This document shows, piece after piece, positions 820 through 64,000 of a stretch of DNA of 64,000 nt (position 1 is its first letter; each line of letters starts with the position of its first letter). The position numbers and the translations under genes were made by a program. The stretch is taken from assembly GCA_030614915.1 (NCBI GenBank), contig JAUXAG010000005.1:1-64000 (forward strand), read 5' to 3'. The notes under the pieces were generated by a model. The model was not told the origin of the DNA, did no database searches, and saw only the letters and a list, made by a program, of their open reading frames with translations. This stretch comes from Actinomycetes bacterium. Its GTDB lineage: Bacteria; Planctomycetota; Phycisphaerae; JAACET01.

Positions 820-1964
820 GTTTGGATAGGTTGTGGCCAAGTGGTCTCGAGGAAGCGTCCGTTTTTCTGGATGAGTTTTCCATCGGCGAATACCTCTCCG
901 CCGTGTCGCAGGTCGCAGACCATGTCCCAGTGTAGGCCGGAGGTATTCTTTGAACCGGTCTCGGGGTATCCCTTGCCCAGGGCGAGATGACAGGTGCCGC
1001 CGATTTTCTCGTCGAAGAGGAGGTTCCGGGTGAATTTTTGGACTTCGTAGTTGGTGCCGAGGGAGAGCTCGCCTAGGAAGCGTGCGCCTTGGTCCTGGTC
1101 GAGCATGGTGGTAAGGAAGTCCTGGTTTTTTGTGGCGGTGGCCTCGACGGCTTTTCCGGCTTTGAAGGTCAGGTGGATGTCGTCGACGTGGCGACCATCG
1201 CGGATGGCGGGGAAGCTATAGCGGATGTGGCCTTCGACGGAATCTTCGACGGGACCGGTGAAGACTTCGCCGTCGGGAAAGTTCATGTCGCCCAGGCAGT
1301 TTATCCATTTGCGTCCCTCGATGCCGAAGCGGATGTCCGTGTCGGGGGCTTTGATGTGTAGCTCTTTGCATTTGTTGAGGTAGTCGGCGACGCGTTGCTG
1401 TTGCTCGGCGAGTTTTTTCCAAGCGGCAACCGGATCGTTGTGATGCAATAGGCAGGCTCGGTAGAGAAAGTCCTCATACTCGGCGAGAGACATTTCCGCC
1501 TCTTGGGCATAGGCCAGAGTCGGGTAGGCGGTGAGTGTCCAGCGGAGTTGGCCCTCGGCGGCCCGTTCGAAAAAGCGTTCTTTGAGAGGTTTGCGAGCTT
1601 GACTCAACAGGGCCGGTCTAGCGGGGTCTATATTGCTGAGGGCCCGGGTGTTGCTTGTGGCAAGCACTCTGATACTAACGTCGATCTGTTCGACTTCCTG
1701 GCGGTCGAGGTCGGATACGAACTTGAGCTGTTCGTCGGAGGCGTTTTTTAACATGACTTCGCTAATGCCAGTTAGGTCAGAAGTTTCTTTGGGCAAGAGT
1801 TTGATGCGTGGGTGTCCGCCGGCTTTGAGGGTTTGTTTGAGCAGGGCCAGGATCAGGGGCTCAGCCAAGGTCGGACCTTTTATACTTACCAGGTCGCCGG
1901 GTTTGACACCGGCTGAGTATCTGATAAGGACCTGGGCCATTTTTTCAACACGTGGATCGAGCAT
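816..1964 (-). CDS. M29 family metallo-aminopeptidase
   Basis: A 382-residue protein of the thermophilic aminopeptidase T/S family (M29), which removes N-terminal amino acids using a dinuclear metal site. The expected ligands are all visible in the C-terminal half: Glu in NFPDGEVFTGP, Glu in FLGELSLG, His in GGTCHLALG, and His plus Asp in GLHWDMVCDL. The start is the ATG at 1964, preceded by an AGGAG ribosome site about ten bases upstream. The frame stays open further 5' only as a shadow of the epimerase gene. There is no signal peptide, so it is cytoplasmic, probably in peptide turnover. Its TGA overlaps the ATG of the methyltransferase. Confidence 0.9.
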   Translation of the reverse strand: MLDPRVEKMAQVLIRYSAGVKPGDLVSIKGPTLAEPLILALLKQTLKAGGHPRIKLLPKETSDLTGISEVMLKNASDEQLKFVSDLDRQEVEQIDVSIRVLATSNTRALSNIDPARPALLSQARKPLKERFFERAAEGQLRWTLTAYPTLAYAQEAEMSLAEYEDFLYRACLLHHNDPVAAWKKLAEQQQRVADYLNKCKELHIKAPDTDIRFGIEGRKWINCLGDMNFPDGEVFTGPVEDSVEGHIRYSFPAIRDGRHVDDIHLTFKAGKAVEATATKNQDFLTTMLDQDQGARFLGELSLGTNYEVQKFTRNLLFDEKIGGTCHLALGKGYPETGSKNTSGLHWDMVCDLRHGGEVFADGKLIQKNGRFLETTWPQPIQT

Positions 1965-2131
1965 AGTGACTACTCCTAGGAGAATGAGTTTTCGCTTTAG
2001 CCGATTGTACCGGGCGCGTTGCGGACTCTTCAAGGTCTTTCTGGACCGTTTGCGTCTCTGCGGACCGGTCCTGCCGGAAGAAGTATGTCTGGTTTTTTGC
2101 CGGACCCGATCAGGAAAGAGCGGAACGGCCC

Positions 2132-50561: not shown

Positions 50562-51947
50562 TTAGTCTGCAAGACCTAGTTTCCTCATTTTACTCTGTAA
50601 GGTAGTTCGTGGGAGGTTCAGGAGTTTTGCGGCTTTGCTTTGTGAGCCGTCGGCCAGGCGCAGGGCCCAGCGGATGAGCTCGGCCTGGACGGCGTCGGTG
50701 AGCCCGGATATATCCACAGTACCCCTGGCGGGCAGATTCAAGCTGAATAGACCCTTGGCGGGCGGGCGGTGAGTGATCTCAGGGGGAAGGTGGGCGACGG
50801 TGAGCCGACCGGCGGAGCAGAAGGCGACGCTGGCTTCGATGACGTTTTCGAGCTGACGGACGTTGCCGGGCCAATCGTACTCGATGAGGTAATGCAGGGC
50901 TTCGGGGTCCAGCTTTGGGGGAGCCTTTTTTTGTCGGGCGGCGTAGTGAGCGACGAAGTGATCGGTGAGCAGGGGGATGTCCTCCTTGCGCTGGGCGAGG
51001 GGGGGCAGCTCGATGCGGATAACGTTCATGCGGAAGAAGAGGTCGGCGCGGAATCGGCCGGCGTCGACAAGTTGCTGCAAGTCAGCTTTGCAGGCGCAGA
51101 TGATACGGCAGTGCACGTCGATTTCGCTCTCGCCGCCGACGCGGAGCATCTTGCGCTCCTGGAGGACACGGAGGAGCTTGGTCTGCAACTCCAGAGGGAT
51201 GTCGTCGACGTCGTCGAGGAAGAGGGTGCCGTCGGCGGCAGCTTCGAATCGGCCGATCTTGCGGCGATAAGCGCCGGTGAAGGCCCCGCGTTCGTGGCCG
51301 AATAGCTCGCTCTCCAATAATTGGGGCGAAAGGGCTACGCAACTGACCGGGACAAAGGGTAAGGCCCGGCGGACAGACTGAAAATGGATGGCCCGGGCGA
51401 GCAGCTCCTTGCCCGAACCGGTTGGGCCCTTGATCAATACGGTAGTGCTGAGGTCTTTGACCAGGTTGACGGCTTCGAATATTTCCCGCATTTTTCTGCT
51501 GCGTCCGATGACGTTGCCCAGGGCGAAGCGGCGTTCGGCGTCTTGTTGGAGGCGGTCACGATCGGCGCGCAACTGGAGGAGCTCGAAGAGCCTTTCGATT
51601 TTGACCAGGAGCTCTTCGGCGGATACCGGTTTGGGTAGGTAGTCGGCGGCGCCGAGCTTCATGGCGGCAACAGCGTCGGAGACCGTGGCGTAGCCGGTCA
51701 TGACAATCACCGAGATGGACTGGTCGCGCTGCTTGAGCTGTTTTAGAAAGTCGATGCCGTCGGTACCGGGCAGGCGGACGTCGGTAATGATAAGCTGGGG
51801 GGCGAGTTTATCCAAGTCTTGCAGGGCCTGGTCGGCGGTGGCGAAGGCGGTGATGCTGTAGCCGGCCTCGCTGAGACGTTCGGTAAGAGCAGCGGTGATG
51901 ATCGGGTCGTCCTCTACCAGGACAATGATTTTGTCTGCTTTGTCCAT
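50562..51947 (-). CDS. NtrC-type sigma-54-dependent response regulator
   Basis: A 461-residue enhancer-binding protein. A receiver domain (residues 1-120, phospho-acceptor Asp56, conserved Asp13-Asp14 and Lys106) is followed by an AAA+ domain with Walker A GPTGSGKE (174-181), the sigma-54-contact loop GAFTGA (221-226) and DGTLFLDDVDDIPLELQTKLLRVLQ (Walker B), and a Fis-type helix-turn-helix (QSKAAKLLNLPRTTLQSKMRKLGL). It is the last gene of the operon that starts with cooC, divergent from the CODH/ACS operon, which has a sigma-54 promoter. The kinase next door is its likely partner. Confidence 0.96.
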   Translation of the reverse strand: MDKADKIIVLVEDDPIITAALTERLSEAGYSITAFATADQALQDLDKLAPQLIITDVRLPGTDGIDFLKQLKQRDQSISVIVMTGYATVSDAVAAMKLGAADYLPKPVSAEELLVKIERLFELLQLRADRDRLQQDAERRFALGNVIGRSRKMREIFEAVNLVKDLSTTVLIKGPTGSGKELLARAIHFQSVRRALPFVPVSCVALSPQLLESELFGHERGAFTGAYRRKIGRFEAAADGTLFLDDVDDIPLELQTKLLRVLQERKMLRVGGESEIDVHCRIICACKADLQQLVDAGRFRADLFFRMNVIRIELPPLAQRKEDIPLLTDHFVAHYAARQKKAPPKLDPEALHYLIEYDWPGNVRQLENVIEASVAFCSAGRLTVAHLPPEITHRPPAKGLFSLNLPARGTVDISGLTDAVQAELIRWALRLADGSQSKAAKLLNLPRTTLQSKMRKLGLAD

Positions 51948-51952
51948 GGTCC

Positions 51953-53065
51953 TTACTCGGGGGGAGCGGTTTTTTCGCCGGAACGCTGGGCTGGTTCGTA
52001 GCGGGGCAAGGTAACGTTGAAAATGGTACCCCCTCCGGGTCTGCCATTGACGGATATTCGCCCGCGATATTCGGCAATGATGTTGGCGCTGACGCTGAGG
52101 CCCAGCCCGGTGCCTTTGCCGTCGGCTTTGGTGGTAAAAAACGGGTCGAAGATTTTTTCCCTAAGGTGCTCGGGCACACCGCAGCCGTTGTCGGCAATGC
52201 TCAGCAGAAGCGTCTGGTCGTCCTGCAGGGCCAAGGTCAGCTCGACCCGGCCGTCAGCCCGGCCGACGAGAGAGTCCAGAGCGTTGTTGAGCAGATTGAT
52301 GATCATCTGGGCCAGGGCGTGTGAGTCGGCATAAACCTGAGCGTCGGGAGCTTCGATGGAGCTGCTGATCTGGGCCTGCTGCTGACGGGCTCGAGGGCGC
52401 AAAAACTCGATGGACTGGAAGACTACGTCGGCCAGGCGGATAGGCTGCCGCTGGGCGGGGGCTGGCCGACCAAAGGCCAGAACCCTTTGCACCGCGGATT
52501 GGATGCGTTCGAGGCCCTGCATGATCAGCGGGAGGAAGCGGTTGATTTTCTCCCAGTTGCCGGGGTTGTCGCGGATAATGCGGACCGATTCCATTATGCC
52601 GGCAAGTGGGCTGTTGATTTCGTGGGCGACGGCGGCGGCCAACTCGCCGAGAATGGCCATCTTCTCGGCCCGCATCATGTGGCCGGAAGAGGCGGGGCGC
52701 TCGGCCTGATCTTCGAGCAGTACGGCGGTGCCCAGGTAATCGCCGCTTTGGTTGGTGGCTCGGGAATAGTGGGCCGCGACGCTGGAGCTGTGCAAATCGA
52801 ATCGGCCTTGCAGTTGGGGCGCTTGGCCGTGACGCAAGGCGTCGATAGCTAGAATGGTGGCGTCTGCGAAGGGTCCGGCGAGTTTGCGGATGGACCGGCC
52901 GGGCAATTTCTTCGGGTCTTCGGCCAATAGTACGGCGGCTTGAGAGTTGGCGTAGACCAGGCGGTCGTGACTGTCGAGCAATACCAGGCCGTGACTGCTG
53001 TGATCGAGCAGGGAGAGCAAAAGGGCCTGGTCGTCTGATAAGTGTTGGTCTGAGCGGGGAGTCAT
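51953..53065 (-). CDS. Cytoplasmic PAS-domain histidine kinase
   Basis: A 370-residue histidine kinase without membrane helices. A PAS-like N-terminal domain (about residues 15-120: LLSLLDHSSHGLVLLDSHDRLVYANSQAAVLLAEDPKKLPGRSIRKL) precedes the H-box AVAHEINSPL (His148), the N-box INLLNNALDS and the G boxes DNGCGVP and GKGTGLGLS. The missing membrane part means it senses an intracellular signal. The stop is followed at five bases by the NtrC-type gene. The start is the ATG at 53065; further in-frame upstream sequence overlaps the receiver gene. Confidence 0.93.
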   Translation of the reverse strand: MTPRSDQHLSDDQALLLSLLDHSSHGLVLLDSHDRLVYANSQAAVLLAEDPKKLPGRSIRKLAGPFADATILAIDALRHGQAPQLQGRFDLHSSSVAAHYSRATNQSGDYLGTAVLLEDQAERPASSGHMMRAEKMAILGELAAAVAHEINSPLAGIMESVRIIRDNPGNWEKINRFLPLIMQGLERIQSAVQRVLAFGRPAPAQRQPIRLADVVFQSIEFLRPRARQQQAQISSSIEAPDAQVYADSHALAQMIINLLNNALDSLVGRADGRVELTLALQDDQTLLLSIADNGCGVPEHLREKIFDPFFTTKADGKGTGLGLSVSANIIAEYRGRISVNGRPGGGTIFNVTLPRYEPAQRSGEKTAPPE

Positions 53066-53066
53066 T

Positions 53067-53474
53067 CTACGACCTCTGTGATCTGAGAAACTTCTCCAGG
53101 TGGGCGGCGATTTCGGTCGGTGCAGTACCCTTGTCCAGAAAGCCTCGGGCAGGACAGTAGCCGGGCTCGTCGAGTTTGCTCTTGAGGTCCAGGCCGAAAC
53201 GCTCGTCGGCGGCGGAAAGTATGAAAGCCGGAAGAGCGTCAAGCCGACCGGCCGCTTTGAGTTCCCTGGCCCAGCGCAAACCGGCATCCGGCTCGTCGAG
53301 CATGATATCCAACAGGAGCAGATCAATTTTCTCGTCGTCGAGAATGTCTTCAGCCTGGCTGGGTGTCTCGGCCCAGAGGATTCGGCCGAGATGAGCCTCG
53401 AGGAACGGTTTGAGTGAGGCCGCGTAATCGGCGTCATCGTCGACCATCAGGATGTTCCACTTTCTGCGAGCCAT
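53067..53474 (-). CDS. Stand-alone receiver-domain protein
   Basis: A 135-residue CheY-like receiver: KWNILMVDDDADYAASLKPFLEAH, phospho-acceptor Asp56 in LLLLDIML, and a C-terminal DKGTAPTEIAAHLEKFL with the conserved Lys. It has no output domain. It ends one base before the kinase begins and sits 14 bases after cooC, suggesting a phosphorelay or phosphate-sink role in the cooC-linked two-component system. The ATG at 53474 is chosen. Confidence 0.85.
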   Translation of the reverse strand: MARRKWNILMVDDDADYAASLKPFLEAHLGRILWAETPSQAEDILDDEKIDLLLLDIMLDEPDAGLRWARELKAAGRLDALPAFILSAADERFGLDLKSKLDEPGYCPARGFLDKGTAPTEIAAHLEKFLRSQRS

Positions 53475-53488
53475 GTTTTTTGTTTGTC

Positions 53489-54256
53489 CTATCCGGTTTC
53501 GGGCCATATGGCTGTGGCGATCTGTTCGACGTAGCGGCGTTGCTCGGAGGTATCGAGCCAGCAGGAGCGACCCTCCAGGTCGGAGCGGGCGATGGCGGGG
53601 TCGTAGGGCAAAGTACCCAGCAGGGGCAAGTCGTTCAGCAGGGATTCGAGTGAGCTGGTGTCCAAACCCTCGGGGAGCTTGTTGATTACCGCGGCGACGT
53701 TATCGATGCCGATCTGCTGGGCTAATCGCCGAACGTTCAGCGCGGTCTGGATGCTGCGCTGGCCGGGCTCGGTTACCACGATCATGTTGGATACGGACTT
53801 GGCGGTGGCCCGGCTGAGGTGCTCGACGCCAGCTTCCATGTCCAAAATCACGATCTGCTCGGGACTCAAGAGCAGATGGGTGACCAGGGCTTTTAGCAGG
53901 GCGCTTTCGGGGCAAATGCATCCGCCTCCGCCGGTGGCTGCCCCGCCGAGTACCAGCAGGCGGATGCCGTCGAGTTTGTGGCTGAATCGATCGGGGATAT
54001 CGTCAACCTTGGGGTTGAGCTTGAAATAGCCGCCGTAGCCGGCCTGGGCGTCGGTGCGGTCGAGGATGAACTGACGCATGTCGGAAATGGGGGTAATCTG
54101 GGTCTGGGTGGGGATGCCCAAGGCCCCGGCCAAGTTGGCGTCGGGGTCGGCGTCGACGGCGATGACGTCCTTGCCTTTTTCTGCCCAATACCTGGCCAAA
54201 AGGGCTGCCAAGGTGGTTTTGCCAGTGCCGCCTTTTCCGGAAATGGCCAGCTTCAT
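53489..54256 (-). CDS. cooC: CODH maturation ATPase CooC
   Basis: A 255-residue deviant-Walker ATPase (MinD/ParA fold) that helps nickel insertion into CO dehydrogenase. Walker A is GKGGTGKTT (residues 7-15), followed by VIAVDADPDANLAGALGI. The GGGGCICPESALLKALVTHLLL segment contains the CxC motif seen in CooC proteins, and ILDMEAGVEHLSRATAKSV is the switch region. It is the first gene of the minus-strand operon, divergent from cooS. Confidence 0.93.
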   Translation of the reverse strand: MKLAISGKGGTGKTTLAALLARYWAEKGKDVIAVDADPDANLAGALGIPTQTQITPISDMRQFILDRTDAQAGYGGYFKLNPKVDDIPDRFSHKLDGIRLLVLGGAATGGGGCICPESALLKALVTHLLLSPEQIVILDMEAGVEHLSRATAKSVSNMIVVTEPGQRSIQTALNVRRLAQQIGIDNVAAVINKLPEGLDTSSLESLLNDLPLLGTLPYDPAIARSDLEGRSCWLDTSEQRRYVEQIATAIWPETG

Positions 54257-54321
54257 GATCTTTTCGACCTCTAGTTATAAGGTAAATAACGAAAATCAGG
54301 GTGATTTGCCCTGCGGACAGT

Positions 54322-54350
54322 ATTCTAAGAGGGGAAAACTGAAAAGGCAA
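54322..54350 (-). promoter_or_regulatory. Candidate sigma-70 promoter of the cooC operon with operator-like repeat
   Basis: On the minus strand, TTGCCT (54345-54350), a 17-base spacer, and TAGAAT (54322-54327, 5/6). The inverted repeat GGCAAA-CCT-TTTGCC (54346-54360) overlaps the -35 hexamer, so a regulator bound there would be expected to block or assist this promoter. Confidence 0.5.
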
Positions 54351-54373
54351 ACCTTTTGCCGAAAATACGGCAG

Positions 54374-54390
54374 TTTTTCGGGGCGAAAAA
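54374..54390. promoter_or_regulatory. 7-base inverted repeat, candidate upstream activator site
   Basis: TTTTTCG-GGG-CGAAAAA is perfectly symmetric and lies about 190 bases upstream of the sigma-54 promoter, in the usual range for NtrC-type binding. A second repeat, GCCGA-TTAC-TCGGC, is at 54457-54470. Confidence 0.4.
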
Positions 54391-54456
54391 GCCGATACTT
54401 GGAAGTTCATGTTGTAAGAGCTTTTAATAAAGTATGTTATAGAAGAACTGGTCTTG

Positions 54457-54470
54457 GCCGATTACTCGGC
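54457..54470. promoter_or_regulatory. 5-base inverted repeat, second candidate upstream activator site
   Basis: GCCGA (54457-54461) pairs with TCGGC (54466-54470) around TTAC, about 92 bases upstream of the sigma-54 -24 element. Its size and position suit an enhancer, but its sequence does not clearly match the other repeats. Confidence 0.35.
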
Positions 54471-54561
54471 ACTAAGGTGAGCGTCTGCTGAACAGTGGTA
54501 GTGGCAAGGTGGCTATCTGTCTCTATAAGGGCATCTTAGGGAGAATTGGAAGCGAAGTTGG

Positions 54562-54578
54562 CGGCACGGGCTTTGCTT
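54562..54578 (+). promoter_or_regulatory. Sigma-54 (-24/-12) promoter of the CODH/ACS operon
   Basis: CGGCACGGGCTTTGCTT matches the sigma-54 consensus TGGCACG-N4-TTGCW: GG at 54563-54564 and GC at 54575-54576 are separated by the required ten bases. The predicted start of transcription is near 54588, leaving about 90 bases of leader before the cooS ATG. The divergent operon encodes an NtrC-type activator. Confidence 0.75.
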
Positions 54579-54679
54579 ATAAACAAGAAGGGACGGAGTC
54601 TCTGCGCAAGGTCCTGTCCCCACAAAGGTTGTTTAGGCTATTTGGTGAAATATCTCCTACATTCTTGGGAGGCTGTAAC

Positions 54680-56635
54680 ATGAGTTCGAAGGATAATTCA
54701 ATAAGTATTGACCCTGCCAGCGAGCAAATGCTGGAATCGGCGGCGTCTCAGGAACTGGAGCTCGCTTGGGATCGCTACCAGGCTATGCTGCCGCAGTGCG
54801 GTTACGGGCAATTGGGTTTGTGCTGTAAGATTTGCGTGATGGGTCCCTGCCGGATCGATCCTTTCGGGCAGGGGCCGCAGAAGGGAATATGCGGGGCGAC
54901 GGCGGATATTATTGCGGCTAGGAACCTGGCACGCATGATTGCCGGCGGGGCAGCGGCCCATTCGGATCACGGGCGGGATGTGGCCCACACTCTGTTAACG
55001 GCGGCTAGTGACCCTAACTGCGATTACAAAGTCATTGATGAGAAAAAGATCCGGGCCTTAGCAGAGGAGTTCGGCATCGCTACCGAGGGCAAGAGTAAGG
55101 AAGAGCTAGCCAAGGCCGTAGCCGAAATGTCTTTTGCCGAATTCGGCCAGCAGCACGGCGAACTCAAGTTTGCCCAGCGGGCCCCCGACGATCAAAAGAA
55201 GCGTTGGCGGGAGCACAGGGTCATGCCCCGGGGGATTGACCGTGAGATAGTCGAGATTATGCACCGGACGCACATGGGTGTGGACAACGATCCTAAGAAC
55301 ATCATCCTGCAAGGAATCCGGGCGGCCCTAGCCGATGGCTGGGGCGGCTCGATGATAGCCACGGAACTTTCCGACGTGCTTTTCGGCAGACCAAACCCGC
55401 TGAAGTCGATGGTCAACCTTGGGGTGATGAAGGCCGACGAGGTGAACATCCTGGTTCACGGGCACGAGCCGACGCTGTCGGAGATGTTGGTAGCTGCCAG
55501 TCAGGATCCGGAGATGATTAAATTGGCCGAGAGCAAAGGAGCCAAGGGAATTACTTTGGCGGGCATCTGCTGCACGGCTAATGAAATATTGATGCGGCAC
55601 GGCATTGCCATCGCGGGCAACTTCCTGCAGCAGGAGCTGGCCCTTTCGACAGGGGCGGTTGATGCTATGATCGTGGATGTGCAGTGCGTGATGCCGGCGT
55701 TGGGTGAATTGGCCAAGTGTTTCCACACCAAGCTGATCTCGACCAGTCCCAAGGCCAAGTTCCCCTTTGCTGAGCACATAGAGTTTGACGAATCCAAGGC
55801 CCTGGATATAGCCAAGCAGATTATCATCACGGCTATCGAAAACTTCCCCAAGCGCAAGGGCAAGAACGTCTGCATTCCGGACATCCGGGAGAACATGGTG
55901 GCGGGCTTTACGGCTGAGAGTGTGTTTGAATTTCTTGGTGGGCGTTATCGGCCGAGTTATCGTCCGTTGAACGAGGGGATCATAACCGGGCGGCTGCGTG
56001 GGGCTGCGGCCATTGTGGGCTGCAATAACCCCAAGATAAAACACGACTACGGCCACGTTACCATGACCAAGGAACTGCTGGCCAACGATGTGCTGGTGGT
56101 AACGACCGGGTGCACAGCCATTGCCGATGCCAAGGCGGGGCTGCTGGATCCGGGCGAGGCCTTGCAGTACTGCGGCAAGGGCTTGCAGGAAATTTGCCGG
56201 GCGGTGGGAATTCCACCGGTGCTGCACCTGGGGTCCTGTGTGGATATCAGCCGGATTCTGGTGGTCCTGTGCAACGTTGTGTCCCAGGGCGGGCTGGGCG
56301 CAAGCATTGCCGATTTGCCGGCGGCCGGGGCTGCTCCGGAGTGGATGAGTGAAAAAGCTGTGGCCATCGGCTTCTACGTAGTGGCTTCCGGCGTCTATAC
56401 CGTTTTAGGCCAACCTTTGCCGGTGCAGGGAGCCGAAGGGCTGACCAAATTCCTGTGTCAAGATATAGAGGATATTTTCGGGGGCAAGTTCGCCTTTGAG
56501 TCCGATCCTGTTGAGGCGGCGCACATGATGCTGGATCATATCGACCGCAAGCGGAGCGAGCTGAAGCTGGCTCCGGTGCTCTATCCGGTGCCATATGCGC
56601 CGAAGGAAGTAGCCGAGGCGGCCGTGGCCGTGTAA
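54680..56635 (+). CDS. cooS: Anaerobic Ni-Fe carbon monoxide dehydrogenase, catalytic subunit
   Basis: A 651-residue CODH that interconverts CO2 and CO. Cys40, Cys48, Cys49, Cys52, Cys57 and Cys71 in the N-terminus supply the D- and B-clusters. The Ni-Fe-S C-cluster ligands appear intact: His262 (VHGHEPTL), Cys298 (GICCTANE), Cys336 (VDVQC), Cys448 (IVGCNNPK), Cys478 (TTGCTA) and Cys520 (HLGSCVD). The start is the ATG at 54680, just after GGGAGG. It is the first gene of the operon and is followed 27 bases later by a CooF-like ferredoxin. Confidence 0.97.
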   Translation: MSSKDNSISIDPASEQMLESAASQELELAWDRYQAMLPQCGYGQLGLCCKICVMGPCRIDPFGQGPQKGICGATADIIAARNLARMIAGGAAAHSDHGRDVAHTLLTAASDPNCDYKVIDEKKIRALAEEFGIATEGKSKEELAKAVAEMSFAEFGQQHGELKFAQRAPDDQKKRWREHRVMPRGIDREIVEIMHRTHMGVDNDPKNIILQGIRAALADGWGGSMIATELSDVLFGRPNPLKSMVNLGVMKADEVNILVHGHEPTLSEMLVAASQDPEMIKLAESKGAKGITLAGICCTANEILMRHGIAIAGNFLQQELALSTGAVDAMIVDVQCVMPALGELAKCFHTKLISTSPKAKFPFAEHIEFDESKALDIAKQIIITAIENFPKRKGKNVCIPDIRENMVAGFTAESVFEFLGGRYRPSYRPLNEGIITGRLRGAAAIVGCNNPKIKHDYGHVTMTKELLANDVLVVTTGCTAIADAKAGLLDPGEALQYCGKGLQEICRAVGIPPVLHLGSCVDISRILVVLCNVVSQGGLGASIADLPAAGAAPEWMSEKAVAIGFYVVASGVYTVLGQPLPVQGAEGLTKFLCQDIEDIFGGKFAFESDPVEAAHMMLDHIDRKRSELKLAPVLYPVPYAPKEVAEAAVAV

Positions 56636-60608: not shown

Positions 60609-62792
60609 ATGTCACATGAAGTAATCAGTGCGGTAATCAGGGGAGCCACCGGATTCGTAAACGAGGCCCAGGAGAAGCTCACGGCTGCCTTGGCCAAGCA
60701 CGGCTCGGACAAGGAAGTGAGTTTTCCGGAAACAGCTTTTTATCTGCCCATGGCCTGTGCCCTGATGGGCATCGAGGCTAAGAAGCTCTCCGACCTGGGG
60801 CCGATCGTCGAGCACTGCAAAGATATTCTGCCGCCGGTGCCGGCCAAGACGCTGTGGATGCCCTATCTGGGTCACGGTCTAGACGCCGGGGCGGCTACCT
60901 TGCTGGCTAGCGAGGTTACCTGTGCCCTGCGCTATCTGGAGGGGGAAAAGATAGAGGATGGTTTTGAAGGGTTCATGTCCGACACGGTTCTGCGGGAGTT
61001 GGGCATCCAACTGGTCGATGGGCGGATGCCGGGTTTTGCGGCTATCCTGGGTCCGGCTCCGAGCAACGAGATCGCAGTGAGCACCATCCGCGAGCTGCAG
61101 AAGCGCAGTATCCTGAGCTTTATCATCGCCAACCATAAGGGCAAGAGCATGTTCGACCAGCTCACCGAAGAAGGTGTGGAGATGGGCTGGAGCACTTATA
61201 TCGTTCCGGTGGGGCGGGACACTCAAGCCGGGAGCTACGTGCTGGACTGGGCCATGCGCGGGGCGCTGACTTTCGGCGGGCACAAGAAAGGGGACTTTGT
61301 TAGTTGTCTGAAGTACACCCGGGACCGGATTTTTGCTTTCGGGATAACCTTCGGGCCGATACCAGATGATTGGTACGCGATGGGAGCTGGGGCTATTCTG
61401 ATGGGCTTCCCGGTGATTTCCGACTGCCAGGCCACGCCGGAGGTCAGGCCCACGGGGGTAACGCTGTACGAGGCCCTGGTTCACGAGACTGATTACAGCA
61501 AACTGGTCAGCCGCTGCATCGAGGTCCGCGGCGTGCAGGTCAAGGTCGAGGAGATCGACATTCCCGTTTCCTACGCGGCAGCCTTCGAGGGCGAGCGGGT
61601 CCGCCGGGAGGATATGCACGTGGAGTTCGGCGGGAAATACTCCACGGCTGTGGAGTTCCTGCGGATGCGCGAGTTGGACGCAGTGGAAGACGGCAAGATA
61701 GAGCTGATCGGCTCGGACATCGACAAGGCCGAGGCCGGCGGAGCTATGGACCTGGCCGTGGTGGTAGATGTGGCTGGGCGAAAAATGCAGAGCGATTTCG
61801 AAGGTATTCTGGAAAGGCAGATACACACTTATCTCAACCACGCTATGGGGGTGATGCACACCGGCCAGCGCGACCAGATCTGGCTGCGGGTGAGCAAGAG
61901 CTCATACGGGCAGGGATTCAGGCTGGAGCACTTCGGAAGGATTCTGCACGCCAAGCTGCACGAAGGCTTTGCCGGGATCGTAGACAAGGTGGCGGTTACC
62001 ATTTACACGGATAAGAAGGATGTGGAAAAGATACTGCCCGAGGGCCGCAAAGCTTTTGACGCTCGCGACGACCGCATCGCGGGGATGAGCGATGAGTCGG
62101 TGGATATTTTCTACTCCTGTACCATTTGCCAGAGCTATGCGCCGAACCACGTTTGCGTAATTACGCCGGAACGGCTGGGATTGTGCGGGGCCTACAACTG
62201 GCTGGACGGCAAGGCGGCCTTCGAGATTAATCCGGCCGGTCCCAACCAGCCGATCAAGAAGGGCAATGTCATCAACGAGCGGATGGGCGAATGGGAGGGA
62301 GTCAATGCGTTCGTATATGATAAATCCAACCGGAGTGTGGATCACTTCAGCGCCTACTCGCTGATGGAAAACCCCATGACCAGTTGCGGGTGCTTCGAGT
62401 GTATCCTGGCCATCGTGCCCGAGGCCAACGGGGTGATGATCGTCAATCGTGAGTACCCGGGCGACACTCCCATCGGTATGCCCTTCAGCACTTTAGCCGG
62501 GTCGGTTGGCGGAGGGGCCCAGACGCCGGGCTTTTTGGGCGTGGGAAGGCTGTATCTGACCAGCAAGAAGTTTATTTCGGCCGAAGGCGGGCTGGGCAGG
62601 CTGGTGTGGATGCCCAAGGAGCTCAAGGAGGCCATGCGCGAGCGTCTTTCCGCCAGGGCCAAGGAGGCCGGCCTGGGAGAGGACTTCATGGACAAAATTG
62701 CCGATGATAGCATATGTACGGACAGCGAAGGGCTGATGGAGTTTCTGACCAAGGTGGAGCACCCGGCTATGGCCATGGAGGCACTTTTTTAA
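60609..62792 (+). CDS. acsB: CO-methylating acetyl-CoA synthase, catalytic subunit
   Basis: A 727-residue full-length bacterial ACS that joins CO, a methyl group and CoA to make acetyl-CoA. The A-cluster ligands match the Moorella thermoacetica enzyme with a constant shift of two: Cys504, Cys507, Cys516 and Cys526 for the 4Fe-4S cluster (Moorella 506, 509, 518, 528), and Cys593-Gly594-Cys595 for the distal nickel (Moorella 595-597). The N-terminal CODH-contact domain is present, unlike the shorter archaeal subunit. The start is the ATG at 60609, ten bases after GAGGTG. Confidence 0.98.
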   Translation: MSHEVISAVIRGATGFVNEAQEKLTAALAKHGSDKEVSFPETAFYLPMACALMGIEAKKLSDLGPIVEHCKDILPPVPAKTLWMPYLGHGLDAGAATLLASEVTCALRYLEGEKIEDGFEGFMSDTVLRELGIQLVDGRMPGFAAILGPAPSNEIAVSTIRELQKRSILSFIIANHKGKSMFDQLTEEGVEMGWSTYIVPVGRDTQAGSYVLDWAMRGALTFGGHKKGDFVSCLKYTRDRIFAFGITFGPIPDDWYAMGAGAILMGFPVISDCQATPEVRPTGVTLYEALVHETDYSKLVSRCIEVRGVQVKVEEIDIPVSYAAAFEGERVRREDMHVEFGGKYSTAVEFLRMRELDAVEDGKIELIGSDIDKAEAGGAMDLAVVVDVAGRKMQSDFEGILERQIHTYLNHAMGVMHTGQRDQIWLRVSKSSYGQGFRLEHFGRILHAKLHEGFAGIVDKVAVTIYTDKKDVEKILPEGRKAFDARDDRIAGMSDESVDIFYSCTICQSYAPNHVCVITPERLGLCGAYNWLDGKAAFEINPAGPNQPIKKGNVINERMGEWEGVNAFVYDKSNRSVDHFSAYSLMENPMTSCGCFECILAIVPEANGVMIVNREYPGDTPIGMPFSTLAGSVGGGAQTPGFLGVGRLYLTSKKFISAEGGLGRLVWMPKELKEAMRERLSARAKEAGLGEDFMDKIADDSICTDSEGLMEFLTKVEHPAMAMEALF

Positions 62793-62889: not shown

Positions 62890-64000
62890 ATGGCTTTGAC
62901 AGGACTGGCAATATTCAAGCATTTGCCCAAGACCAACTGCAAGGAGTGCGGCTTTCCGACCTGTTTGGCTTTTGCGATGAAAGTAGCAGCCGGGCAGGAG
63001 GGTCTGGATTCGTGCCCCACGATGACCGACGAGGCCCGGGCGGCGTTGAGCGCGGCCAGCGCCCCGCCGCAACGGCTGGTCAAAATCGTCGGTCCCAAAA
63101 GCGAAGTAGCCGTTGGTCAGGAAACAGTGATGTTCCGTCATGACGAGACCTTTCACAATCCGACGGGCGTGGCTATCCAGGTTTCCGATGCACTTGGCGA
63201 CGAGGAAATCAAGGCCCGCTGCCAGGCGATTAAGGCTCTGACTTTTCACCGGGTGGGTACGGATATCAGCGTGGACCTGGCGGCGGTGAAGAACGATTCG
63301 TCCGATGCGGCCAAGTTCGCTTCGGTGGCCAAGACCGTCAGCGAGCAGACCGAATTGCCGCTGCTGCTGATCAGCGCCGATGCCGCAGCCCTCAAGCAAG
63401 CTGCCCAGGGCTTGGGCGACGGGGTCAAGCCTCTCTTGGTTCCCAGCAACGGAGCCCTGGAAGGTGCGGCGGAGCTGGCCAAGACGGGCAAGTATCCGCT
63501 GTGCGTGACCGACGGCAACCTTGAGGCCTTGGCGGGCGTGAGCGAAAAACTCAGCCCCGACGTGCCGGACCTGGTGATTTCTCCGGGCGAGCAGGCGAGT
63601 CCCAAGGTAATCGAATTCCTGACCACCGCCCGTCGGGCAGCGTTGAAAAAGAAATACCGCCCGCTGGGTTTTCCGGCTTTGGCGTATGCAACGGAGTCGG
63701 ACCCGGCCAAGGCAGCTATCCGGGCCAGCTCCTATGTGAGCAGGTACGCGGGTATCGTGGTGCTTGATACGATCGAGCCTTGGGCGGTGGTGGCGGTGCT
63801 GACCACGAGGCAGAATCTTTACACCGATCCGCGAAAGCCAGTCCAGGTGGAGCCCAAACTCTACGAGATCAGCAGCCCCAGCGACAGCGATCCACTGTTG
63901 ATAACTACTAACTTTTCGCTGAGCTACTACAGCGTGGAAGGTGAGCTGACCGCGGCGAGGCTGCCGGCGAGGATTCTGGCGGTGGATACGGAAGGCACGT
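62890..64000 (+). CDS. acsC: Corrinoid iron-sulfur protein large subunit (CODH/ACS gamma), cut by window edge
   Basis: The first 370 codons of AcsC, the subunit that, with AcsD, carries the methyl group on a corrinoid from methyl-tetrahydrofolate to ACS. The N-terminal 4Fe-4S motif is CKECGFPTCLAFAMKV ... DSCP (about residues 18-40). It is followed by the TIM-barrel part (DSSDAAKFASVAKTVSEQTELPLLLIS, PLCVTDGNLEALAGVSEKL, PLGFPALAYATESDP). The start is the ATG at 62890, just after GGAGGATTGTT. The corrinoid-binding C-terminal region lies beyond the edge. Confidence 0.95.
   Translation, partial: MALTGLAIFKHLPKTNCKECGFPTCLAFAMKVAAGQEGLDSCPTMTDEARAALSAASAPPQRLVKIVGPKSEVAVGQETVMFRHDETFHNPTGVAIQVSDALGDEEIKARCQAIKALTFHRVGTDISVDLAAVKNDSSDAAKFASVAKTVSEQTELPLLLISADAAALKQAAQGLGDGVKPLLVPSNGALEGAAELAKTGKYPLCVTDGNLEALAGVSEKLSPDVPDLVISPGEQASPKVIEFLTTARRAALKKKYRPLGFPALAYATESDPAKAAIRASSYVSRYAGIVVLDTIEPWAVVAVLTTRQNLYTDPRKPVQVEPKLYEISSPSDSDPLLITTNFSLSYYSVEGELTAARLPARILAVDTEGT

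Follow-up and report, generated by a model that had tools for sequence, protein, structure and literature searches.

Candidate regulator sites and a predicted sigma-54 promoter between cooC and cooS at a CODH/ACS locus of Phycisphaerae

The interval between cooC and cooS is probably a shared control region, in which an NtrC-type regulator acting at two conserved copies of one palindrome would activate cooS and tune the cooC operon. The two copies, called sites 1 and 2 here, are most likely where an NtrC-type regulator, itself a product of the cooC operon, would bind. The interval (54257–54679, 423 bp, 45% GC) lies in a window of 64,000 nucleotides, the whole stretch of DNA analysed, and divides two sets of genes that point away from each other.

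Gene order and inverted repeats

We infer from gene order and spacing that each of the two gene sets is a single operon. The genes concerned are:

50562–51947, minus strand: NtrC-type response regulator (PF00072, PF00158, PF02954), fourth gene of the putative cooC operon
51953–53071, minus strand: histidine kinase (HisKA, HATPase_c); a PAS match falls short of the Pfam cut-off
53067–53474, minus strand: stand-alone receiver-domain protein (PF00072), between cooC and the kinase gene
53489–54256, minus strand: CooC-type (MinD/ParA-like) ATPase (PF01656), first gene of the putative minus-strand operon
54680–56635, plus strand: cooS, anaerobic CO dehydrogenase catalytic subunit, first gene of the putative plus-strand operon
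60609–62792, plus strand: acsB-type CODH/ACS alpha/beta subunit, downstream of cooS in the same direction

The cooS product scores 665.1 bits against TIGR01702 (cut-off 478) and the acsB-type subunit 992.1 bits against NF040764 (cut-off 800); between them the plus strand encodes ferredoxin-like and NuoE/F/G-like proteins. The name cooC is based on protein family and on the place beside cooS, no cooC model having matched. The stand-alone receiver protein (53067–53474, minus strand) is possibly a phosphate sink or an alternative output. After acsB, an open frame beginning with a KECGFPTC stretch (62890–64000, plus strand) runs off the window, and we take it to resemble the large subunit of the corrinoid iron-sulfur protein. 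The longest open reading frame listed for cooS starts at GTG 54509 (window 54509–54680). We rejected this start as too long, because ATG 54680 and the bases just before it are conserved in the alignment of all three species of the genus and a predicted sigma-54 promoter lies inside the longer frame; ATG 54680 is the likely start.

The initial annotation had listed four inverted repeats between cooC and cooS, and all four are present in the sequence:

54346–54360, no strand: repeat 1, GGCAAA-CCT-TTTGCC
54357–54372, no strand: TGCCG...CGGCA pair, the same as operator site 1
54374–54390, no strand: repeat 2, TTTTTCG-GGG-CGAAAAA, not conserved
54457–54470, no strand: GCCGA-TTAC-TCGGC, the core of operator site 2

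The TGCCG/CGGCA pair had been listed as a minor feature, and its identity in sequence with the repeat at 54457 had been missed. Between 54346 and 54470 there are eight inverted repeats with arms of at least five bases and gaps of 3–10, against a mean of 1.45 (P 0.005), and four with arms of at least six and the same gaps, against 0.40 expected (P 0.010). The null was 1000 dinucleotide shuffles, and nested arms on one centre were counted separately, in the shuffles as well. The form GCCGN6CGGC occurs twice in 54257–54679; among 20,000 shuffles, 30 had one copy and none had two. It is hardly credible that the repeats have all arisen by chance in an intergenic stretch richer in AT. Inverted repeats this short occur often and repeat 2 fits chance, but the excess over shuffles and the conservation, at fixed spacing, of two of the four repeats argue against it.

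Conservation of the sites and of the cooS promoter

We found cooS at E ≤1e-100 in 17 of 101 genomes (the source genome, which is counted, and 100 relatives). The footprint alignment covers three species only, namely the source (G000) and the other two species of its genus, G001 and G002, with cooS at 90% and 85%, respectively. The features on which the argument turns are:

54357–54372, no strand: candidate operator site 1, TGCCGAAAATACGGCA, core GCCGAWWAnnCGGC at 54358–54371, five pairs kept in all three species
54456–54471, no strand: candidate operator site 2, GGCCGATTACTCGGCA, core 54457–54470, proposed main enhancer
54562–54577, plus strand: predicted sigma-54 promoter (-24/-12) of cooS, CGGCACGGGCTTTGCT, conserved in three species
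54346–54361, minus strand: possible sigma-54 -24/-12 element of cooC, CGGCAAAAGGTTTGCC, containing repeat 1
54322–54350, minus strand: possible sigma-70 promoter of cooC, with -35 TTGCCT (54350–54345), 17 bp, and -10 TAGAAT (54327–54322)

In the three-way alignment the spacers are invariant in 32 of 175 columns, and identity extends to 71 of 176 fourfold degenerate positions in cooS. With both we compared three blocks that had been chosen by eye once the alignment had been seen. The block at 54345–54372, which holds site 1 and the cooC promoter sequence, is invariant in 22 of 28 columns (Fisher P 6e-10 against spacers and 1.5e-4 against fourfold sites), that of site 2 (54457–54471) in 13 of 15 (1.2e-7 and 5.5e-4), and that of the cooS -24/-12 element (54561–54580) in 17 of 20 (3.6e-9 and 1.3e-4). 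The cooS leader (54581–54660) is also above the spacers, with 42 of 85 columns invariant, for which the proposed reading gives no reason. Phylogenetic footprinting had been suggested in the initial annotation as the check on its repeats, with conservation of none of them as the outcome that would count against it; two of the four are conserved, at fixed spacing. When the loci of four other families were added, with interval ends that are approximate and taken from BLAST matches, the 7-sequence alignment held no common block.

Sites 1 and 2 read TGCCGAAAATACGGCA and GGCCGATTACTCGGCA in the source genome, TGCCGAAAAACCGGCA and AGCCGATTATCCGGCA in G001, and TGCCGAAAAAACGGCA and AGCCGATTATCCGGCA in G002. 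We therefore derived the consensus GCCGAWWAnnCGGC, since the two sites share one sequence in three species. Site 1 keeps its five outer pairs in all three; site 2 has five in the source and four in the relatives. From the start of site 1 to the start of site 2 is 99, 99 and 98 bp in the three species, and from the start of site 2 to the cooS -24 box 105, 105 and 106 bp. The bases separating sites 1 and 2 and the -24 box are largely unconserved, though these spacings keep to 1 bp. Measured from its centre, site 2 is 98.5 bp away from the cooS -24 box and 102.5 bp from the possible -24 box of cooC; for the centre of site 1 the distance to the cooS -24 box is, by arithmetic, 197.5 bp. A distance of about 100 bp from -24 is normal for an enhancer. 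As expected of upstream activating sequences, both sites are palindromes about 80–200 bp upstream of a sigma-54 promoter and are conserved together with their spacing. NtrC-type activators usually have a close pair of sites, and an interval of 99 bp is unlike that. In a search of the interval for IHF sites, IHF-like matches occurred in G002 only.

The repeats at 54374–54390 and 54457–54470 had both been placed at enhancer distance from the -24 box, and their centres are indeed about 180 and 98 bp before that of cooS. The claim holds for the second, which is conserved (13 of 15 columns), but not for repeat 2, where 4 of 18 columns are invariant, as in the spacers (Fisher P 0.44). We rejected repeat 2 as an enhancer site; it is probably a chance feature.

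It is extremely unlikely that the repeats are RNA hairpins or terminators, such as the plus-strand hairpin TGCCG-AAAATA-CGGCA with GTTTTTC after it. A scan of 54200–54720 for terminator-like structures gave three against 0.6 expected, but the T run follows this hairpin in the source and G001 and not in G002, no plus-strand gene was recognised directly upstream of it, site 2 has no T run, and Rfam gave nothing at gathering score in the whole window. The missing T runs and the empty Rfam search led us to reject a terminator or RNA element.

The reading of a sigma-54 promoter at cooS, with its -24 box, is supported: CGGCACGGGCTTTGCT at 54562–54577 is kept in all three species, and all three genomes carry rpoN (PF04552, DNA-binding domain, above cut-off). 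The promoter has the near-consensus form CGGCACG-N4-TTGCT in each species and fits GGN10GC, with GG at -24, GC at -12 and 10 bp between. It scores 14 of 15 in the source genome, G001 and G002 on a consensus and weights of our own. This conserved element is a candidate sigma-54-dependent promoter of the CODH/ACS operon. The form YGGCACGN4TTGCW occurs 5, 6 and 6 times in the three genomes against one match in each control, and 11 of the 17 matches lie outside mechanical open reading frames. Several precede groEL or sit between dnaK and clpB, positions which suggest that the form is functional in the genus.

The near-consensus sigma-54-type sites at chaperone genes are found at L171, L172, L176, L181, L185 and L186, distributed over G000, G001 and G002. 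Chaperone genes were identified by Pfam for L172, L181 and L186, and by look at the sequence for L171, L176 and L185; at L171 groES comes first, and L181 has two sites between divergent dnaK and clpB. These positions suggest sigma-54 control of chaperones in the genus. Chaperone groups are among those described as enriched in Planctomycetota in the relevant passages of PMC12316311.

The palindrome is less distinctive genome-wide. Single copies are not enriched (9, 5 and 5 in G000, G001 and G002, against 9, 5 and 6 in the reversed control), and the evidence for operators therefore rests on pairing, place and conservation. A search of 298 genomes of the class for the pair pattern (GCCGANNANNCGGC twice, 70–100 bp between) gave 12 genomes with it, and four with the reversed control. 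Three of the 12 are the species of the genus, at the cooC–cooS place; in the other nine the matches, judged by eye, look GC-rich and coding. We also built an operator matrix from the six sites themselves, so that its scores are circular and informative only as the gap to the next-best sites. G002 alone has a third, weaker operator-like site, GGCCCAGTGATCGGCA (L002:1323–1338), between site 2 and the cooS promoter, which scores 10.5 against 19–22 for the six defining sites.

Strict matches to the motif in G000–G002 number 19: the six sites here, two coding matches in the locus (window 53419–53432, in the receiver gene, and G001:C122:3084, in cooS) and 11 elsewhere. Nine of the 11 are in mechanical open reading frames of at least 80 amino acids and two are intergenic, one about 575 bp ahead of a gene for elongation factor Tu (L162) and one just upstream of an alpha/beta-hydrolase gene (L168); neither intergenic sequence holds a GGYAN6YTGC site. 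No second target confirms the motif, because GCCGN6CGGC is missing within about 800 bp of all 14 other sigma-54-type sites in the three genomes; for three of these it occurs farther off, inside an open reading frame. Among the 11 motif matches and these 14 sites there is no second promoter that combines motif and sigma-54 site, and a wider regulon was not found in the G000–G002 matches examined.

The cooC promoter and the proposed circuit

On the cooC side, the element CGGCAAAA-N3-TTGCY (CGGCAAAAN3TTGCY) keeps both boxes in all three species while N3 varies. It lacks the consensus C and G after GGCA. It has GGN10GC in all three species, half of it being operator sequence, and its TTGC also fits a sigma-70 -35 box. 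This TTGC stands exactly at the -12 distance from CGGCA, for which P(TTGC) is about 0.004 by composition. The pentamer CGGCA (54357–54361, minus strand) is common to site 1 and the possible cooC -24 box. Read as sigma-70, the promoter is TTGCYT-N17 followed by TAGAAT in the source and G001 and TATAGT in G002 (TTGCYT-N17-TAKART), which is the top match in the leaders of the first two and equal-top with two others in G002. The cooC promoter can be read either way from its sequence, and both forms may be used.

The initial annotation had repeat 1 lying on the cooC -35 box. This overlap is real (TTGCCT, 54350–54345, minus strand), and the sigma-70-type match concerned is the only one in 54200–54720, a count at chance level (0.7 expected). 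It had also taken repeat 1 as a sign that the cooC operon is autoregulated by its own activator. Autoregulation is plausible, but repeat 1 is a weak basis for it, its six-base arms shrinking to four: the GCAA/TTGC pairs are kept in all three species, and both relatives lack the outer and inner pairs. The four that remain fall on the promoter boxes, GGCAA and TTGC, and the sigma-54 consensus itself contains a GCA...TGC complementarity. Repeat 1 is better read as cooC promoter sequence than as an operator. That it is nevertheless an operator through which an activator controls the cooC operon is very unlikely: GCAA-N7-TTGC is kept in all three species and lies on the promoter, but two of the six pairs are lost in both relatives, the remaining four are promoter boxes, and the repeat is unlike the repeated motif GCCGAWWAnnCGGC. 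We do not favour it as an operator on account of the lost pairs. The TGCCG-N6-CGGCA of site 1 appears the better candidate for an autoregulatory operator, because its five pairs are kept in all three species where repeat 1 is down to four. Autoregulation of cooC through site 1 is plausible since the site overlaps or abuts the cooC promoter, ending 6 bp from the sigma-70 -35 box.

It is possible, but doubtful, that cooC is instead transcribed from a constitutive sigma-70 promoter (TTGCYT-N17-TAKART), both sites being only cooS enhancers and autoregulation being absent. The sigma-70 match, top in the source and G001 and equal-top in G002, keeps its place despite a diverged spacer; a -10 box of five of six bases at 16–18 bp from TTGC occurs in 2.7% of shuffled G002 leaders, and the -35 hexamer lies outside site 1. 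However, a dimer at site 1, 6 bp from the -35 box, would probably touch RNA polymerase. The placing of TTGC exactly at the -12 distance from CGGCA (P about 0.004) and the single sigma-70 match in the interval, at the level of chance, also argue against this alternative.

The regulator (50562–51947) has a receiver domain, an AAA+ sigma-54 activation domain with GAFTGA, invariant in all three species, and a Fis-type HTH, each with a Pfam match above cut-off. It is NtrC-like rather than NtrC itself, because its score against TIGR01818, the NtrC equivalog model, is 417.3 bits, below the cut-off of 558.6. The orthologues are 92% (G001) and 83% (G002) identical. In G002 cooC, the receiver gene, the kinase gene and the regulator gene follow in the same order on one contig, and in G001 they fall on two contigs. 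No part of the regulator's HTH sequence could be tied to GCCGAWWAnnCGGC. It is unlikely that another regulator binds sites 1 and 2 while the NtrC-type protein of the operon binds sites that we did not recognise. No direct evidence connects the HTH with the motif, and the genome encodes at least four other NtrC-type proteins at E ≤1e-80, but the palindromes stand next to a gene of the NtrC type, as far from a sigma-54 promoter as an enhancer would be, and regulator and sites co-occur in the genus and are both absent from the other-family loci fetched.

We return to the regulator encoded in the cooC operon as the protein that probably acts at both sites. Observed in three species are the regulator gene, rpoN, the sequence of the sigma-54 promoter, and sites that are conserved together with their spacings; from these we infer that the regulator binds the sites, that looping takes place, that the gene sets are operons, and in which sense autoregulation works. 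The NtrC-type regulator would bind as dimers to both copies of GCCGAWWAnnCGGC. Site 2, midway between the operons, would be the enhancer, from which the activated regulator would loop to sigma-54 RNA polymerase at 54562–54577 and turn on the CODH/ACS operon. Site 1 would perhaps assist in this activation from its place about 197 bp ahead of the cooS -24 box. At site 1 the regulator would disturb the cooC promoter, sigma-54 or sigma-70 alike, and so limit its own operon, the effect probably being negative at high occupancy. We propose only tentatively a dedicated two-component sigma-54 switch on the CODH/ACS (Wood-Ljungdahl) operon in which CGGCA is at once an operator half and the activator's own -24 box. 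If this is true, an activator covering the -24 box shuts its own promoter, and the same dimer is the distal enhancer of a metabolic operon.

Distribution, related systems and meaning

Upstream regions of cooS were examined at 93 of 99 loci, the other six being without a start or enough sequence. A sigma-54 score of at least 13 of 15, again on our own consensus and weights, was found within 400 bp of cooS in five of the 93, where shuffles expect 0.95. These are four loci of the genus (three species, one contig being present twice, L021 = G001) and L058. A double GCCGN6CGGC occurs upstream of cooS only in the genus, and a single one in L011, L013, L019 and L056. The regulator and kinase genes adjoin cooC in the genus, whereas five stretches with cooC and cooS from other families (L102–L106, 8–9 kb each) gave no kinase or NtrC match; four of these are divergent, and in L106 cooC is not adjacent. 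The best matches to the regulator outside the genus are 43–45% identical, and their flanks (about 1.5 kb) hold no cooC or cooS match. The circuit thus appears to be a genus-level arrangement among the loci examined. In L096, from Thermodesulfobacteriota, an NtrC-like match of 40% (1066–2028, minus strand) lies about 4 kb upstream of a cooS without a sigma-54 score of 13, possibly pointing to further sigma-54 activators near CODH genes.

Activator genes beside a divergent sigma-54 target are known from systems of the ZraSR/zraP and pspF/pspA types, where shared upstream sites also affect the activator's promoter. The locus resembles them in that the activator gene adjoins a divergent sigma-54 target with shared upstream sites; signals and targets are other, and the motif here is GCCG-N6-CGGC. 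The nearest described layout that we found is the orp1/orp2 region, by analogy with which this kind of switch is already known. Passages of PMC3897727 describe how the Desulfovibrio vulgaris enhancer-binding protein (EBP) DVU2106 activates the divergent sigma-54 operons orp1 and orp2 from palindromic sites, at -131 and -88 in the shared region; a site overlaps the sigma-70 promoter of the EBP gene, which results in a negative loop, and the system requires IHF sites. Like that region as described there, ours has divergent operons, a predicted sigma-54 promoter, palindromes in the shared region and a site overlapping or abutting the promoter of the EBP operon. In contrast, the target here is CODH/ACS, the EBP has a receiver domain, and IHF-like matches are found in G002 only.

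Dedicated regulators of CO oxidation genes have been described, namely the anaerobic, CO-responsive CooA, RcoM and CorQR (PMC4703632, PMC6557876). In the passages concerned CooA and RcoM are haem-based CO sensors, CorQR is an archaeal pair with a 4-vinyl reductase domain, and sigma-54 is not described for any of them. The system here would likewise be dedicated to CODH genes, as the passages present those, but made up of an NtrC-type activator, a histidine kinase and a stand-alone receiver protein. CooA is also named as the likely regulator of a CODH operon in a passage of PMC9888536. For Bradyrhizobium sp. DOA9, RpoN sites have been predicted ahead of coxS and xdhC/coxF (PMC13207237, 2026), again a sigma-54-type promoter predicted at CO dehydrogenase genes; however, in the table passage the enzyme is the aerobic (cox) one, the sites are predictions only, and no enhancer sites are given. 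The D. vulgaris sigma-54/EBP regulons inferred by comparative genomics in PMC4641369 similarly have, in the part that describes them, EBP genes in or divergent from sigma-54 operons. Its main text does not contain 'CO dehydrogenase', nor does that of PMC12316311 contain 'carbon monoxide' or 'CO dehydrogenase'. In the titles and starts of abstracts searched, with subscription journals mostly outside the search, we found no sigma-54 or NtrC-type control of a CODH/ACS operon.

The repeats are thus confirmed and their earlier interpretation is partly supported. Given a list of inverted repeats, footprinting tells the likely sites from those due to chance, and the GCA...TGC within the sigma-54 consensus can mimic such a repeat. 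Should cooC turn out to have a sigma-54-dependent promoter, one unusual detail would be that an operator half-site is also the -24 box. The analysis provides exact, testable sites for control of the CODH/ACS operon in a lineage represented here by draft genomes only, and it suggests that the CODH/ACS pathway may be controlled by a sigma-54 two-component system, beyond the CO-sensing CooA, RcoM and CorQR.
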